Assembly: GCF_014397005.1 (NCBI RefSeq)
Contig: NZ_JACGWS010000001.1
Span: 1 to 64,000 of the forward strand
Origin: Kordia aestuariivivens
GTDB taxonomy: Bacteria > Bacteroidota > Bacteroidia > Flavobacteriales > Flavobacteriaceae
Direction of reading: 5' to 3'
Length of the DNA stretch: 64,000 bases
The notes beneath the pieces were generated by a model, which had not been told where the DNA came from, searched no databases, and was given only the letters and a program-made list of their open reading frames with translations. Of this stretch, positions 33,695 through 40,479 are shown piece after piece (within the stretch, counting starts at the first letter, position 1; each line of letters opens with the position of its first letter). The position numbers and the translations under genes are program-made.

Positions 33695-35377
33695 ATGAAA
33701 AAAACAATGACAAAAACGCAATTATCACCTTGGCAACGTTTTGTTGGCTTGCTTCAGTTAGAGAGAAAAGATATATTACAGATTCTTTATTATGCCATCT
33801 TCGCAGGAATTGTAGCATTATCGCTACCACTTGGAATTCAATCAATCATCAATTTGATACAAGGTGCGCAAGTATCAACTTCTTGGGTTGTGCTAGTTGT
33901 ATTGGTAACTTTAGGAGTTGTGTTTTCGGGTGCATTACAATTGATGCAACTGCGAATTATAGAAACCATACAGCAGCGTATTTTTACACGCGCATCTTTT
34001 GAACTCAGCTATCGTTTTCCAAAAATCCGAATGGATGAGCTCCGAAACTACTATCCGCCTGAGTTGGCAAATCGATTTTTTGATACATTAACCATTCAAA
34101 AAGGATTGTCTAAAATATTAATAGATGTGCCTTCTGCCTTGTTGCAGATATTATTTGCGCTCATTCTATTATCATTCTATCATCCGTTTTTTATCATTTT
34201 CGGAATCTTATTGCTGCTTTTAATTTATATAGTATTCAAGTTTACAGCTCAAAAAGGATTGCAAACAAGCTTAGACGAATCTAAAAATAAATACAAAGTT
34301 GCGCATTGGATTCAGGAAGTAGCAAGAACAATGGTAAGTTTCAAGCTTTCTGGAAATACCAATTTGGCACTCAAAAAAAATGATGCGTTGGTTTCTGAAT
34401 ATTTAAAAGCTAGAGAAAGTCACTTCCGTATTTTAGTATTACAATTCATCCAAATGATTTCGTTTAAAGTGTTAGTCACGGCGGGATTATTACTCATTGG
34501 TGGCGCATTGGTATTAAATCAGGAAATGAATATTGGACAGTTTGTCGCAGCAGAAATTATCATCTTACTTGTAATTGCTTCGGTTGAAAAACTAATTGTT
34601 GGTCTAGAATCTTTTTACGATGTATTAACGTCTATTGAAAAATTAGGACAAGTAGTTGACAAAGGTTTGGAAGCAGAAGAAGGTGAAACACCTAATTTTG
34701 ATCCTGAAGTAACGATTGAACTTGATAATGTTTCGTATAAAGTTGAAAATAGAGAAAAACCAATTTTAAAAGATATTTCGTTAACGATCACGCCAAAAAG
34801 TAGAATTTTAATTCAGGGTGAAAGCGGTTCAGGTAAATCGAGTTTATTACGACTCATAACTGCCGTTGTAGCGCCCACAGCAGGAAGTATTTATGTCAAT
34901 AAATATTCCATAGAAAGTTTACACTTAAATCATTATCGATCGCATTTGGGATTATCACTTTCAGAAGAAACCCCTTTTGAAGGAACGATACGAGAAAACT
35001 TAACATTTGGAAATGAAAATATTTCTGATGACACCATATTTTGGGCTTTAGAAAAAGTAGGATTGACACAATTTATAAAAGAACAACCGAAAGGATTAAA
35101 AACCATTCTAAATCCGGAAGGAAAACAAATTTCGTATAACATTTCTAAAAAAATAGTGCTGGCAAGAGCAATTATCAAAAAGCCAAAAGTATTAATTCTA
35201 GAAGATCCACTAGATCAATTTAATGTTGATGAAAGTAATATTATTATTGACTTCTTAACAGACAAATCAAATCCGTGGGCATTAATTGTAGTAAGTAGCA
35301 ATGAACGTTGGAAAACAGGTTGCGCAGGTTTGATAACACTAGATAAAGGAGAAATTAAAAGTCGAAAATCATGCTAA
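33695..35377 (+). CDS. Type I secretion-like ABC transporter with degenerate ATPase domain
   Basis: A 560-residue half-transporter: a membrane domain with about six helices (residues 25-315) fused to a nucleotide-binding domain (about 345-555). There is no N-terminal C39 peptidase domain. Walker A GESGSGKSS (375-383) is intact, but the LSGGQ signature reads ISYNI (479-483). The Walker B end is LILEDP with Glu503-Asp504 where Asp-Glu is expected, and the switch His is replaced within VVSSNERW. As a homodimer, ATP hydrolysis should be weak. It overlaps the HlyD-like gene by 7 bases, and TolC follows, giving a tripartite exporter. Substrate unknown; nearby double-glycine peptides are candidates. 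Confidence 0.88.
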   Translation: MKKTMTKTQLSPWQRFVGLLQLERKDILQILYYAIFAGIVALSLPLGIQSIINLIQGAQVSTSWVVLVVLVTLGVVFSGALQLMQLRIIETIQQRIFTRASFELSYRFPKIRMDELRNYYPPELANRFFDTLTIQKGLSKILIDVPSALLQILFALILLSFYHPFFIIFGILLLLLIYIVFKFTAQKGLQTSLDESKNKYKVAHWIQEVARTMVSFKLSGNTNLALKKNDALVSEYLKARESHFRILVLQFIQMISFKVLVTAGLLLIGGALVLNQEMNIGQFVAAEIIILLVIASVEKLIVGLESFYDVLTSIEKLGQVVDKGLEAEEGETPNFDPEVTIELDNVSYKVENREKPILKDISLTITPKSRILIQGESGSGKSSLLRLITAVVAPTAGSIYVNKYSIESLHLNHYRSHLGLSLSEETPFEGTIRENLTFGNENISDDTIFWALEKVGLTQFIKEQPKGLKTILNPEGKQISYNISKKIVLARAIIKKPKVLILEDPLDQFNVDESNIIIDFLTDKSNPWALIVVSSNERWKTGCAGLITLDKGEIKSRKSC

Positions 35378-36729
35378 ACATTTCACATAATCAACTCAAC
35401 AAAAAGGTCGATCTTACCAAATTCGAATCTGGTAAAAACATCTTTAATCGAAATTATTACAAACAACTCAATAAATTCTTGTTTGTGTTTGCTGTTGTTG
35501 GAATCATTATACTATTTCTTCCATGGACGCAGAATATTTCTGGACAAGGTTTGGTGACTACATTACGGCCAGATCAGCGTCCGCAAACGATTCAATCTCA
35601 AATTCCAGGACGAATAGAACAATGGTTTGTTCGTGAAGGCGATTCTGTGAGAAAAGGCGATACCATTCTTAAAATATCAGAAGTGAAAAGTGCCTATTTT
35701 GATGATCGATTGGTAGAACGAACTGGCGATCAAATCAAAGCGAAATCATCTTCTGTAACTGCCTACAAAGGAAAAATTAGCGCGCTAGAACGCCAAGTAT
35801 CAGCGTTGCAAAACGAACGAAGCTTAAAACTAGAGCAAACGCAAAACAAACTATTACAAGCAAAACTGAAAATTAAAGGTGATAGTATTGATGTAGAAGC
35901 AGCTCGAATTAATGAAAACATTGCACAACGTCAATACGATCGTACCGAAACATTACAAAAAGAAGGTTTAAAGGCTGTAAAAGATGTGGAAGAAAAACGC
36001 TTAAAACTTCAAGAAACGCAAGCAAAATTAATTTCGGCTGAAAACAAATACTTAGCAAACAAAAACGATTTGCTGAACGCAAAAATAGAATTGTCGCGCA
36101 CAAGAGCTACGTATGCAGACAAAATTTCAAAAGCGCAAAGTAACATGTTTACAGCACAATCAAGTCAATTTGATACAGAAGCGCAAGTAACGAAGTTGGA
36201 AAACGAATACACAAACTATAAAGTTAGAAACGGATTATTATACATTACAGCACCACAAGATGGTTTCATCAACAAAGCAATCAGAGGCGGAATAGGAGAA
36301 ACCTTTAAAGAAGGCGAAGAATTGGTCGGAATTATGCCTGCAGGATATGAATTGGCTGTAGAAAGTTTTGTACGACCAATTGATTTACCATTAATTCACA
36401 TTGGTGAAAAAGTGCGTGTACAATTTGATGGTTGGCCTGCAATCATATTCAGTGGTTGGCCCAATGTTTCTTACGGAACGTACGGAGCAAAAGTGGTTGC
36501 GATTGAAAACTTTATCAGCGACAATGGAAAATACAGAATTTTGTTAGCGCCAGACGAAGATGATCACGATTGGCCAACAGCAATTCGAGTTGGATCAGGT
36601 GCAAAAACGATTGCATTGCTAAACGATGTGCCAATTTGGTTTGAACTTTGGAGACAACTCAACAGTTTCCCGCCAAATTACTATCTACCAGATGGAAAAA
36701 ACAGTAAAGACAAAACAGCTAAGAAATAA
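35371..36729 (+). CDS. HlyD-family periplasmic adaptor
   Basis: A 452-residue membrane-fusion protein. One membrane helix (about 33-52) follows a cytosolic start. A split lipoyl/barrel-sandwich domain (IPGRIEQWFVREGDSVRKGD near 73-92, with its second half at YITAPQDGFINKAI) brackets a long coiled coil (about 110-285). A beta-barrel domain follows (LPLIHIGEKVRVQFDGWPA). It bridges the ABC component and TolC across the periplasm. The 7-base overlap with the ABC gene and the 2-base gap to TolC show one operon. Confidence 0.93.
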   Translation: MLNISHNQLNKKVDLTKFESGKNIFNRNYYKQLNKFLFVFAVVGIIILFLPWTQNISGQGLVTTLRPDQRPQTIQSQIPGRIEQWFVREGDSVRKGDTILKISEVKSAYFDDRLVERTGDQIKAKSSSVTAYKGKISALERQVSALQNERSLKLEQTQNKLLQAKLKIKGDSIDVEAARINENIAQRQYDRTETLQKEGLKAVKDVEEKRLKLQETQAKLISAENKYLANKNDLLNAKIELSRTRATYADKISKAQSNMFTAQSSQFDTEAQVTKLENEYTNYKVRNGLLYITAPQDGFINKAIRGGIGETFKEGEELVGIMPAGYELAVESFVRPIDLPLIHIGEKVRVQFDGWPAIIFSGWPNVSYGTYGAKVVAIENFISDNGKYRILLAPDEDDHDWPTAIRVGSGAKTIALLNDVPIWFELWRQLNSFPPNYYLPDGKNSKDKTAKK

Positions 36730-36731
36730 TC

Positions 36732-38132
36732 ATGAGATACATCTTTCTTTTACTTGTATTTCTTTTCAGTGGAAACGTCACTGCTCAAATTGAAAATCCA
36801 TTAGACTCTATCATGTCTCTGGATGAATATCTTGGGTATGTAAAAACGTATCATCCCATTGTGAAACAAGCAAATTTGATCATTAACGAAAGTGAAGCAA
36901 AATTGCTAAAAGCACGTGGTGCATTTGATCCTAAATTGGAAGTTGATTACAATCGAAAAAAATTCAAGAACACAGCATATTACGATAAACTCAACGCAAC
37001 ATTCAAAATTCCAACGTGGTATGGAATTGAATTAAAAGCAAATTTTGAAGAAAATACAGGCGAATTTTTGAATCCTGAATTTAATGTGCCAACAGACGGT
37101 TTGTACAGCGCAGGCGTTTCGGTTTCATTGGCAAGAGGTTTATTGATCAACGAGCGAATGGCAATGTTGAAGCAAGCCAAATTGTTCACACAACAAGCAC
37201 AAGTAGATCAGCAATTATTGGTCAACGAAATTTTGTATGAAGCAGCGATTACATACTTTAAATGGTTAAAATCGTATCGAAACAACCAAGTGTACCAATC
37301 ATTCTTATCGAATGCAGAATTGCGTTTTAACGGAATCAAAGCAAGTTTTCGAGAAGGTGAAAGAGCTGCTATTGATACGTTAGAAGCACGATTGACCTTA
37401 AATACACGAAAATTAGACTTGGAAAAGACGCGTATTATGTATGTGAAATCGTCGTTGGAGTTGTCTAACTTTTTATGGTTAAATAATAACACGCCAGTAG
37501 AATTAAAAGAAAGCATTCGTCCAGATACAACCACTTTTGAGCGCATTGATGAAATTTTGAATGTAACGGCGTTTGACAATGAAGATTTTGATGTGGAAGC
37601 GCATCCAAAAATACAATCGCTCAATTTAAAGTATGAAAGTTTACAACTCAACAAGCGTCTAAAGCAAAATATGTTATTGCCACAAATTGATTTGCAATAC
37701 AATTTTTTATCGGAAACGCCCGATGAACCCGGAACGTTCAATACGCAAAACTACAAAGCGGGTTTAAATATCAGCTTTCCATTATTCTTGCGAAAAGAAC
37801 GCGGCGATTTGCGTTTGGCAAAGCTAAAATTACAAGATTTAGAATTTGAACGCACGACAACACGTGTAACACTCAAAAACAAAATCAATGCAGTTACACA
37901 AGAAATCACCTCGTACGAATTGCAAAACCGACTCACACAAGAATTGGTAGATGATTATGAAGTGATGCTTCAAGCGGAAGAGCGAAAATTTTTCCTCGGA
38001 GAAAGTTCGTTATTCCTAGTCAATTCGCGAGAAGCAAAACTTATAGAAAACAAAATCAAAGCCATTGAGCTTGAAAACAAATACTTTACAACCAAAGCCA
38101 ATCTCTTCAATATTATGGCGAATATGTTGTAA
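36732..38132 (+). CDS. TolC-family outer-membrane efflux protein
   Basis: A 466-residue protein with signal peptide MRYIFLLLVFLFSGNVTAQ and the two related helical halves typical of TolC (residues about 40-250 and 280-466). Long amphipathic helices, such as RLTQELVDDYEVMLQAEERK, are interrupted by short strand regions that form the membrane barrel as a trimer. It completes the tripartite exporter with the two upstream genes. The operon ends at the hairpin just downstream. Length is normal. Confidence 0.93.
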   Translation: MRYIFLLLVFLFSGNVTAQIENPLDSIMSLDEYLGYVKTYHPIVKQANLIINESEAKLLKARGAFDPKLEVDYNRKKFKNTAYYDKLNATFKIPTWYGIELKANFEENTGEFLNPEFNVPTDGLYSAGVSVSLARGLLINERMAMLKQAKLFTQQAQVDQQLLVNEILYEAAITYFKWLKSYRNNQVYQSFLSNAELRFNGIKASFREGERAAIDTLEARLTLNTRKLDLEKTRIMYVKSSLELSNFLWLNNNTPVELKESIRPDTTTFERIDEILNVTAFDNEDFDVEAHPKIQSLNLKYESLQLNKRLKQNMLLPQIDLQYNFLSETPDEPGTFNTQNYKAGLNISFPLFLRKERGDLRLAKLKLQDLEFERTTTRVTLKNKINAVTQEITSYELQNRLTQELVDDYEVMLQAEERKFFLGESSLFLVNSREAKLIENKIKAIELENKYFTTKANLFNIMANML

Positions 38133-38420: not shown

Positions 38421-38498
38421 GGTCAAATAAATTTAATGATTTATCATAAAATTAGTACAACTTTTGCAAACTATAATGCTGTTTTACAGGAAGGTAGT

Positions 38499-38516
38499 TG
38501 CAATTTATAAATTGCA
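38499..38516 (-). promoter_or_regulatory. Perfect 18-bp palindrome upstream of the minus-strand peptide gene
   Basis: TGCAATTTATAAATTGCA is a perfect palindrome between the end of the regulator gene and the peptide gene. The same sequence, with 16 of 18 bases kept, lies at 40399-40414 upstream of the other peptide gene. A weaker relative, TGCAAACTATAATG, is at 38465-38478. Confidence 0.72.
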
Positions 38517-38544
38517 CTTCGATTTGTGTTATAAAACAGTGTTT

Positions 38545-40335
38545 CTAAGAATTTGAGTGTTTTACTTGTTGTATAAAATCGGAAGGTTGCATCTTTGTCT
38601 TTCGTTTAAAAGCTCTGGCAAACGATTGCGAATTATTAAATCCAACCTCTAAAGCAATTGCCTTAATAGTATATAGTAAAAACTGACTATCGTTTTGAAT
38701 TTTATCAATAGCATAATCAATGCGTAAATCATTCAAATACGCTGCAAACTTCTTATTCTTATACGTATTGATCACTTTTGATAAATATGCAGAATTGGTT
38801 TGAAACTTCTTTGCCAAACCTGTCAGTGTAATATCGTTCGTAATAAAAGTGTTCTTTATTTCAAAATGCTGTAATTTTTCCAAAAGCTGATTTATTACTT
38901 CTTCAGGAACACCAATTTCTTTTACATCGAGTTTATCAACAACTGTTTTTTCATTGGAAACGCTCGTTTCATGTGCTTTTACAAACTCTTGAAAACGCTT
39001 GCGTAAGCGTTGTTGTTTCGAGTAAAACCCAATCAAAATTAATAAAAAAACAGCAAACAATACAATAGCTAAAAGTACAATGCTGTTGTATTGTTTATCT
39101 TTATTCTCTAGTTCTTCATTCAATTGTTTCTGTTTAGAAAGTAGCACACGTCTGTCATATTTTTGGGCAATCTTTGCGCTTAAACGACGATAATCTTTAC
39201 TAAGTTGACTTGAGGCAAACAAAGCCTTTTCAATATAAAACACAGCTTTCGTTTTATCTTCTTGTTCTTTATAATAAGAGTATAATGCGTCATAACTTTC
39301 CATTACACGCGTAGAAATATGATTCGGATTTAGTGAAAACACGGAATCTACCTTCTTGTAATACGAAATGGCAATCTCTTTTTGTTGTAAAGAATCATGC
39401 GCTTTTCCTAAAAAAAGGTAAGCATCAATCAGTGGTAACTTGTCGGTGCTTGCTACAAAATTGGAAATCGTTTGAGATAAACTATCAATAGCGGTTTGGT
39501 AATTTCCTTCCAAAAACAAATTTCGTCCTTCGGTAAACACTAAAAAATTATACACTTTAGTGTCATTCTCTTTTGAAGCAATCTTAATGCCTTCGGAGTT
39601 GTATTTTCGTGAAGAATCAACCTGATGCATTAGTGTATACACATCTGCCAATGCTAAATACGAACGCATAAAATCATTTGGATCGCGATTTGGATTTTGC
39701 AAATCATGTTGGTAAGACTCTTTAAAAATAAGTAAAGCTTCATCGTGCAATTCCAGTCGCTTCTTTAAAATTCCGACATTATGTTTATTTGCAGACAACA
39801 GCTCTAAATTCTCGTTCATTTCTGTGTAGTCAATAGCTTGTAAATAATTCTCTAAAGCTTCCTTATAATTTCCTTTTGAATACGAAACTGCGCCTTTATA
39901 AGTATACAAAACAGCCGGATAGCGCTCGTGTTTTAGTGTTTTGCTTAAAGCGATTCCTTTGTCGTAATATCTAAAACTTTTTCGATAATCATTTTTATGC
40001 GCAATGCCCAACAATTCATACCCAATAGTCATCTGTAATACATCTTTTTCTTTTGTGGCTTTCGCCAGATAGGACTCGGCATACAAAACTCTTTGAAGTG
40101 AATCATTTTTAACACGCTCAAACGAAGTGCGCAACGTTGTGTATGTTTTCTGTTGAAGCGAATCAGGAAGTATAAAACCTGAATCTTCTTGTGCAGATAC
40201 ACCATTCAGTACAAGCAAAAACAGCACAACAAAAAGCAATTGTTTTTGCAAATAAGAAAATAATACAACTGCGAAAGTGGAAAGCCAACTTCTCGGCGTA
40301 ATGAAAAAGATAGAAAAATTAAAAAGTGGTTTCAT
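38545..40335 (-). CDS. Membrane-spanning TPR regulator with AraC-type DNA-binding domain
   Basis: A 596-residue one-component regulator. A hydrophobic N-terminus (about 30-48, ending GVSAQED) acts as signal or anchor and puts the TPR array (about 70-400) in the periplasm. A membrane helix follows (about 415-437, VLLAIVLFAVFLLILIGFYS). The cytosolic AraC/XylS helix-turn-helix pair (about 498-594) includes ALEVGFNNSQSFARAFKRK. It could sense a periplasmic or exported ligand and act directly on DNA. Peptide genes flank it on both sides, each with the same palindrome, so it is the prime candidate to bind those sites. Confidence 0.88.
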   Translation of the reverse strand: MKPLFNFSIFFITPRSWLSTFAVVLFSYLQKQLLFVVLFLLVLNGVSAQEDSGFILPDSLQQKTYTTLRTSFERVKNDSLQRVLYAESYLAKATKEKDVLQMTIGYELLGIAHKNDYRKSFRYYDKGIALSKTLKHERYPAVLYTYKGAVSYSKGNYKEALENYLQAIDYTEMNENLELLSANKHNVGILKKRLELHDEALLIFKESYQHDLQNPNRDPNDFMRSYLALADVYTLMHQVDSSRKYNSEGIKIASKENDTKVYNFLVFTEGRNLFLEGNYQTAIDSLSQTISNFVASTDKLPLIDAYLFLGKAHDSLQQKEIAISYYKKVDSVFSLNPNHISTRVMESYDALYSYYKEQEDKTKAVFYIEKALFASSQLSKDYRRLSAKIAQKYDRRVLLSKQKQLNEELENKDKQYNSIVLLAIVLFAVFLLILIGFYSKQQRLRKRFQEFVKAHETSVSNEKTVVDKLDVKEIGVPEEVINQLLEKLQHFEIKNTFITNDITLTGLAKKFQTNSAYLSKVINTYKNKKFAAYLNDLRIDYAIDKIQNDSQFLLYTIKAIALEVGFNNSQSFARAFKRKTKMQPSDFIQQVKHSNS

Positions 40336-40398
40336 CTCTATAAATATAGTTTTTTTGGTCGTAAAAAGTCTTAATAAAACTACAATTCAAAATGATCT

Positions 40399-40435
40399 TG
40401 CAATTTATAAATTGATAGATGCAATTCATAAATGG
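40399..40435 (+). promoter_or_regulatory. Two tandem operator-like sites 21 bp apart
   Basis: TGCAATTTATAAATTG (40399-40414) matches the 18-bp palindrome at 38499, and a second copy, TGCAATTCATAAATGG, begins 21 bases later (40420-40435). Two helical turns between them suit an AraC-type dimer on one DNA face. The sites lie between the divergent regulator and peptide genes. Confidence 0.7.
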
Positions 40436-40471
40436 TGAGAATAATCGTTTTTTCTCAGCAAAAAAGCACCC

Positions 40472-40479
40472 TACATTTG
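40472..40479 (+). promoter_or_regulatory. Putative -7 promoter element TACATTTG
   Basis: A perfect TAnnTTTG match lies 37 bases downstream of the second operator-like site and 45 bases before the peptide ATG. There is no good -33 element, as expected of an activator-dependent promoter. Confidence 0.55.

Follow-up and report, generated by a model that had tools for sequence, protein, structure and literature searches.

Palindromic sites around a TPR-AraC regulator gene in Kordia aestuariivivens as putative operators of a repeated regulator-peptide cassette

Why the same palindrome should stand ahead of two peptide genes on either side of a regulator gene with TPR and AraC-type domains is the question raised by a locus of Kordia aestuariivivens, located within the first 64,000 nucleotides of contig NZ_JACGWS010000001.1 (hereafter the window). 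An initial annotation had described a perfect 18-bp palindrome 79 bases ahead of one peptide ATG and, ahead of the other, a near-perfect copy followed by a second copy exactly 21 bp further on. The palindromes at both peptide genes are confirmed (Table 1). The perfect copy, operator A, lies between the regulator stop and the start of peptide A (38420), and the ends of the tandem copies B1 and B2 are found 109 and 88 bp ahead of the start of peptide B (40525). An operator role of these palindromes is well supported by comparison of sequences.

Table 1 Features of the regulator-peptide locus in window coordinates.
Feature	Position	Strand	Description
Putative operator A, 18-bp palindrome TGCAATTTATAAATTGCA, no mismatch	38499..38516		Sequence, and 16 invariant columns in seven orthologous gaps
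Putative operator B1, distal tandem copy, two mismatches	40399..40416		64.5 bp from divergent promoter box
Putative operator B2, weaker proximal tandem copy	40420..40437		21 bp from B1, 43.5 bp from divergent promoter box
TPR-AraC regulator gene	38545..40335	-	Between operator A and tandem sites B1/B2
Peptide A gene, 63 aa	38229..38420	-	GG leader with SKIANL motif; immediately 3' of regulator
Peptide B gene, 71 aa	40525..40740	+	Class I lanthipeptide-like leader, core with Cys/Thr
Lipoprotein-like gene, 438 aa	40822..42138	+	Behind peptide B; no Pfam match above cut-off
Candidate promoter box TAATTTTA of peptide A	38447..38454	-	53.5 bp from operator A dyad
Candidate promoter box TACATTTG of peptide B/lipoprotein	40472..40479	+	TAnnTTTR-type
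Candidate promoter box TATATTTA of regulator	40341..40348	-	Distance to operators not conserved
ABC transporter, HlyD-like adaptor and TolC-like genes	33695..38132	+	Convergent with peptide A

Within the window, three matches to the palindrome were found at up to three mismatches, compared to 0.33 expected, and none of 100 shuffles reached three; for the third match (21462) no link to any feature was found. At up to two mismatches, the 5.46-Mb genome contains three places, i.e., the two window sites and C14:28523. Close matches are thus not randomly distributed, two of the three places being the sites at these peptide genes. C14:28523 was rejected as an operator, as it resembles an intrinsic terminator between convergent genes, and no leader-type peptide gene accompanies the other two C14 matches (three mismatches each). 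Since up to three mismatches yield 19 places in the whole genome compared to 6 for a reversed control pattern, the weaker genome matches appear mostly unlinked.

Conservation was assessed in 11 Kordia genomes, scanned for the palindrome at up to two mismatches, with a regulator match of E≤1e-90 as threshold for an orthologue. Copies with no or one mismatch occur in all six genomes with an orthologue (the own genome included) and in none of the five without. A phylogenetic footprint was obtained from seven orthologous loci of six genomes, the window among them, the other regulators being 50-59% identical. In all seven loci the palindrome follows the regulator stop by 8-34 bp (in L052 with one mismatch), and alignment of the gaps reveals an uninterrupted run of 16 invariant columns over the palindrome, surrounded by diverged DNA, as well as an invariant TAnnTTTA beyond it. 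The downstream peptides are alike in their leaders and different in their cores. Upstream of the regulator, the tandem 21-bp pair recurs in 7/7 loci. The proposed tie of the motif to the AraC-type regulator and both flanking peptide genes is borne out by this footprint and by the co-occurrence within Kordia, and co-regulation of both peptide genes via the palindromes is well supported on these comparative grounds. Homologues of the lipoprotein adjoin the regulator in orthologous loci (53-67% identity), homologues of peptide B were found in two relatives (G003 and G002), and exporter proteins beside orthologous cassettes are 80-93% identical where covered. The ABC/HlyD/TolC genes of the window possibly encode the exporter of the peptide; no C39 domain was among the Pfam hits of the ABC transporter.

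The regulator has numerous paralogues. Of the 50 matches from a protein search of its own genome, 33 cover the greater part of the regulator; C3:22593, one of three long matches outside the set examined here, carries an in-frame stop. We examined 76 regulators, 30 from the own genome (G000), 21 from G002, 22 from G005 and one each from G003, G007 and G008. A leader-type peptide gene lies downstream of 69 of them by a loose pattern and of 60 by a strict one, at a gap of 42-184 bp (median 99), and behind 26/30 regulators in G000 alone. Among 57 other genes of the same loci, used as control, a peptide follows in 7 (loose) or 3 (strict) cases; one of these three strict cases stands behind a lanthipeptide cluster gene and another behind an apparently truncated regulator. 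The downstream peptide of L096 is not leader-like by eye and probably spurious, which leaves 68 peptides, yet L096 was kept in the sets for dyad significance, peptide composition, operator dyads with their correlations, and peptide-core correlations. The seven regulators without an adjacent peptide include L022, where such peptides sit further downstream. The 69 peptides have in common a leader with K-x-x-[IV]-[AS] and GG, and their cores contain 16% Thr, 7.7% Cys and no Trp. Judged by sequence, the window locus is one of some two dozen regulator-peptide pairs in its Kordia genome. Related small ORFs (MIHKEQRKKLK and MIHKEQRKRLK, respectively) were noted upstream of two regulators at L021:3577-3861 and L023:3566-3643.

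Outside Kordia the arrangement is sparser. In a Flavobacteriaceae-wide search that scored up to 11 candidates per genome, at least 17 of 120 genomes (own included) had a regulator match at E≤1e-45, and in the loci examined from other genera the same kind of peptide follows 10 of 27 regulators. Another Flavobacteriaceae genome holds seven regulator matches in a row within about 12 kb (G087:C1:1054557-1066657).

The gaps between regulators and peptides contain a family of related dyads. Between -66 and -98 relative to the peptide start, 28/69 gaps contain a dyad of score ≥8, whereas shuffles gave 1.66 on average and 7 at most; in an equally wide stretch nearer the peptide start, five gaps do. 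TTYATRAA cores number 36 in the 69 gaps, as opposed to 5.5 expected, with 31 of the 36 at -73 to -88; 34 gaps contain such a core. The core TTTATAAA is common to the dyads of many cassettes, and the outer arms differ between paralogues. A dyad could be defined in just 36 of the 69 gaps, and individual dyads reached p≤0.05 in 27/68 cassettes. Sharing of operators between the upstream and downstream sides gave 11 rank-1 matches among 68 cassettes with 1 expected (permutation p 0.0002); most of the 68 show no such sharing, and the match of L033 sits in intergenic DNA of the neighboring cassette L041. The pair in the window thereby appears, beyond what the initial annotation had described, as one of many paralogous cassettes with different operators, and by their sequences such cassettes look like many parallel peptide-sensing circuits.

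TAnnTTTG is the promoter box of Bacteroidota. With a box defined by at least 5/6 matches to TAnnTTTG and distances counted from the dyad to the box start, 30 of 36 cassettes, related ones among them being non-independent, have a box 43.5 or 53.5 bp (±0.5) downstream, compared to a control mean of 4.6 and a background of 4.7% per offset. These two values are fairer references than the control maximum of 21, which is not clean because ~33 bp is among its offsets and the +10 partner of that offset coincides with the 43.5 peak. Using the exact box pattern, starts concentrate at 43.5 (10) and, after rounding, at 53.5 (8). The position of the sites ahead of the promoter and the difference of one helical turn between the spacings are in keeping with an activator. 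We infer activation rather than repression, as well as binding of a dimer at the dyads. Among seven gaps from other genera, L112 and L123 contain the core with a box at 43.5 bp and L135 contains the core with a box at 54 bp; no such combination was seen in the other four.

The same geometry bears on the tandem sites. In 7/7 orthologous loci, the proximal tandem site and the start of the divergent TAnnTTTR box are exactly 43.5 bp apart, whereas the candidate box of the regulator itself is found 59.5-93.5 bp from the operators across these loci, with none found in L053. Direct autoregulation, which had been considered possible from the position of the regulator gene between the sites, is not supported in this species; it is toward the divergent promoter that the tandem sites are placed. 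L055 alone is an exception and has a third site 43.5 bp ahead of the regulator box; the window contains one weak candidate regulator box 46.5 bp from the other tandem copy. Further sites located away from the regulator, i.e., G002 L056 (perfect), G008 L068 (one mismatch) and G003 L065 (two mismatches), lie about 90-110 bp ahead of lanthipeptide-like genes, and no box at the 43.5/53.5 spacing was found for these three. The G007 site L067 stands ahead of a second copy of peptide A, and no lanthipeptide-like gene lies behind the two-mismatch sites L058, L062 and L063. In a genome without a close orthologue, L069 combines a two-mismatch site and a box at 43.5 bp with a GG-type peptide gene behind.

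To use the spacing as a search tool, genomes were scanned with TTTATAAA-N28..58-TANNTTTG, and a leader peptide was counted when it started within 100 bp of the box. Spacings 39 and 49 were taken from the cassettes. In G000 (~62-63 places), leader peptides accompany 8/15 places with spacing 39, 40 or 49, of which 40 was added once the G000 results were known, and 0/48 others; the strict pattern gives 6/15 and 0/48. In G002 and G005 together (106 distinct places), a relaxed leader pattern, written with both scan sets already known, gives 8/30 versus 0/76 and the strict pattern 4/30 versus 0/76 (p 0.0055), with no leader peptide at 22 of the 30 places of predicted spacing. The latter scan is a partial replication, because both genomes also fed the geometry. 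Three of the eight peptides of G002 and G005 belong to examined cassettes, and one of the eight of G000 (L174) stands behind an unexamined regulator; with this overlap removed, 7/14 (p 7e-6) remain for G000 and 5/27 (p 0.0009) for G002 and G005. Total scan matches showed no excess over the reversed control (62 versus 61 in G000, 59 versus 57 in G002, 48 versus 65 in G005). The enrichment is one of spacing, not of total number. Among the genes retrieved by the spacing scan are dispersed lanthipeptide-like genes.

The regulator consists of a hydrophobic N-terminus, a TPR domain with TPR families above the Pfam cut-offs, one predicted transmembrane helix (~419-437) and an AraC-type HTH_18 domain (507-589). 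HTH_18 scores 51.8 bits (cut-off 33.6) and HTH_AraC 29.6 (cut-off 26.6), which assigns the protein to AraC/XylS by domain; neither histidine kinase nor receiver domains were among its Pfam hits up to E 1. A central hydrophobic segment is present in 76/76 regulators, 144-181 residues ahead of the C-terminus. The AlphaFold model, based on a 63-sequence alignment (pLDDT 88.9), contains a continuous helix 361-461 that runs through the membrane segment. The best fold matches of the model are LGN and designed TPRs, ahead of pheromone receptors, and the first bacterial or phage fold matches listed are Rap proteins, several with pheromone present. Similarly, a profile search lists RapF, NprR, RapJ and Rap3T, ranked under LGN and designed TPRs. 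The predicted topology would place the TPR domain in the periplasm and the AraC domain in the cytoplasm. The N-terminal region of the regulators at L018, L090, L108, L109 and L087 contains a lipoprotein-like Cys.

The sequences themselves show the sites with their conservation and spacing, the order of the domains and the recurrence of the cassette. Taken together, we consider it reasonably probable that the palindromes are activator sites of a membrane-spanning TPR-AraC regulator which senses the peptide encoded downstream of it, an arrangement repeated across the genome. The periplasmic TPR domain would take up a signal that the long helix would carry across the membrane to the cytoplasmic AraC-type DNA-binding domain. 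This domain would bind the dyad ahead of peptide A and the tandem dyads ahead of peptide B and the lipoprotein gene, all at a fixed helical phase to the promoter boxes, and would switch on all three genes. The ligand may be a mature peptide, derived by export and loss of the GG leader from the precursor encoded immediately downstream of the regulator; each cassette would then form a self-reinforcing peptide-sensing circuit. We infer this identity of the ligand less certainly than activation, dimer binding or topology. Dispersed lanthipeptide-like genes with the same operator-promoter spacing may be further targets. The regulators probably constitute a large family of membrane-anchored one-component activators that sense their own peptide.

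Specificity within the family was examined by partial correlations, which leave some shared ancestry in both comparisons. Operator arms follow HTH identity given TPR (partial r 0.290, permutation p 0.0005) more than TPR given HTH (0.118), and the peptide core follows TPR given HTH (0.268, p 0.0005) more than HTH given TPR (0.155). The operator-HTH signal stems from the closer pairs, since the correlation is absent (0.024) among pairs under 60% HTH identity. L032 and L037 have identical scored operator arms with HTH domains 78% and TPR domains only 46% identical. The double pattern of these correlations would be expected if the TPR domain reads the peptide and the HTH domain the operator; ancestry partly confounds it.

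The most serious alternative accepts regulator and operators as proposed and assigns the TPR domain another cue, e.g., the envelope state, a foreign peptide or the exporter, with peptide A as the first target, for instance a bacteriocin-like product. The peptides are called lanthipeptide-like from leader and core sequence: peptide B reaches 20.9 bits against NF038153, under the cut-off of 22, peptide A has no match to NF038153, and 2 of 14 rows of peptide A-type peptides (13 distinct) match at E≤0.1. The only match in the genome to the lantibiotic dehydratase N-terminal family PF04738 lies away from the window contig, on contig C16, where PF04738, PF14028 and PF05147 form one cluster of dehydratase and cyclase. 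This region (L140, G000:C16:5000-24500) comprises LanC-LanB-Lant_dehydr_C, an ABC exporter that carries a C39 peptidase and is accompanied by HlyD, lanthipeptide-like genes and two regulator-peptide cassettes; the whole genome has three places with a C39 match. One enzyme set on C16 may serve many precursors whose genes lie dispersed elsewhere. Products rather than signals would be in keeping with the Thr/Cys-rich, lanthipeptide-like cores and with the C39 exporter encoded in the LanB/LanC cluster, and the TPR-core correlation is modest and confounded by phylogeny. However, one peptide stands directly behind nearly every regulator (69/76), and its core follows the TPR domain more than the HTH domain. 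We regard another ligand as unlikely, if worth serious attention.

Alternatively, some other DNA-binding protein could bind the palindrome, with the regulator as a bystander. The binding of the regulator to the palindrome is a prediction, and a core TTTATAAA common to many cassettes could suit a shared protein. On the other hand, close copies co-occur with the orthologue across the 11 Kordia genomes, and operator arms follow the HTH domain more than the TPR domain, with identical arms at L032/L037; a bystander regulator is thus very improbable. Even less credible is a transcription terminator or RNA element after the regulator stop. In RNA the minus-strand stretch can form a hairpin whose folding is equalled or surpassed by only 4 of 200 shuffles, but no T-run follows, and the same motif stands upstream of the divergent promoter and of the candidate box of peptide A; with no candidate from the terminator scan and no Rfam match at gathering score at the site, this reading of operator A was rejected. 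A chance AT-rich palindrome was rejected as well and deserves next to no credence: such words are commoner in an AT-rich genome and weak matches exist elsewhere, yet the shuffle counts and the genus-wide conservation (6/6 versus 0/5 genomes) stand against it.

In titles and abstract openings of the open-access literature, a scope that leaves aside subscription papers and preprints, we found no description of such regulator-peptide cassettes. In Bacteroidales RiPP clusters, TPR-domain genes were present in 2/9 selected clusters, and pheromone-binding TPR regulators were raised as a possible role for them (PMC10352776). In the part of that paper drawn on here, these clusters differ in that no AraC fusion, operator or one-to-one pairing of regulator and peptide is described. 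We tentatively suggest, with somewhat less than even confidence, that dozens of peptide-sensing circuits operate in parallel in each cell of Kordia and, more sparsely, of other Flavobacteriaceae, each with its own membrane-anchored TPR-AraC receptor, lanthipeptide-like signal and operator, and that these circuits jointly control dispersed lanthipeptide genes served by one common modification cluster. If true, this would represent a testable peptide-signaling system for Bacteroidota, a counterpart of pheromone signaling with a readable operator code, and would explain how dispersed lanthipeptide genes of one genome are controlled in separate groups. Specificity codes could then also be learned from the many naturally occurring pairs of regulator and operator and of receptor and peptide.

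Known systems share parts of the proposed arrangement. The receptors of the RNPP/RRNPP family (Rap-Phr, PlcR-PapR, NprR, Rgg) are cytoplasmic and respond to re-imported short pheromones. As in these, the receptor would be a TPR domain, with the putative cognate peptide gene adjoining or behind the receptor gene, and RapF, NprR and the Rap protein of phage phi3T are among its matches by profile and fold; in contrast, the Kordia TPR domain is predicted to be periplasmic rather than cytoplasmic and belongs to a chain that also has a predicted transmembrane segment and an AraC-type DNA-binding domain. The C-terminal HTH_18 above cut-off is shared with AraC/XylS regulators, whose half-site spacing resembles the tandem 21-bp sites, whereas the Kordia protein appears membrane-anchored, carries a TPR sensor and is associated with both single dyads and tandem sites. 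In hybrid two-component systems of Bacteroides, a single polypeptide carries the periplasmic sensor, the membrane helix and the AraC-type HTH. The Kordia regulator is predicted to have the same parts and differs by having no kinase or receiver Pfam hit. Nisin-type lanthipeptides induce their own genes, and here, too, a lanthipeptide-like precursor would be controlled by a sensor possibly responsive to the product; the Kordia sensor, however, is one chain without a histidine kinase, and the sole LanB match lies on another contig.
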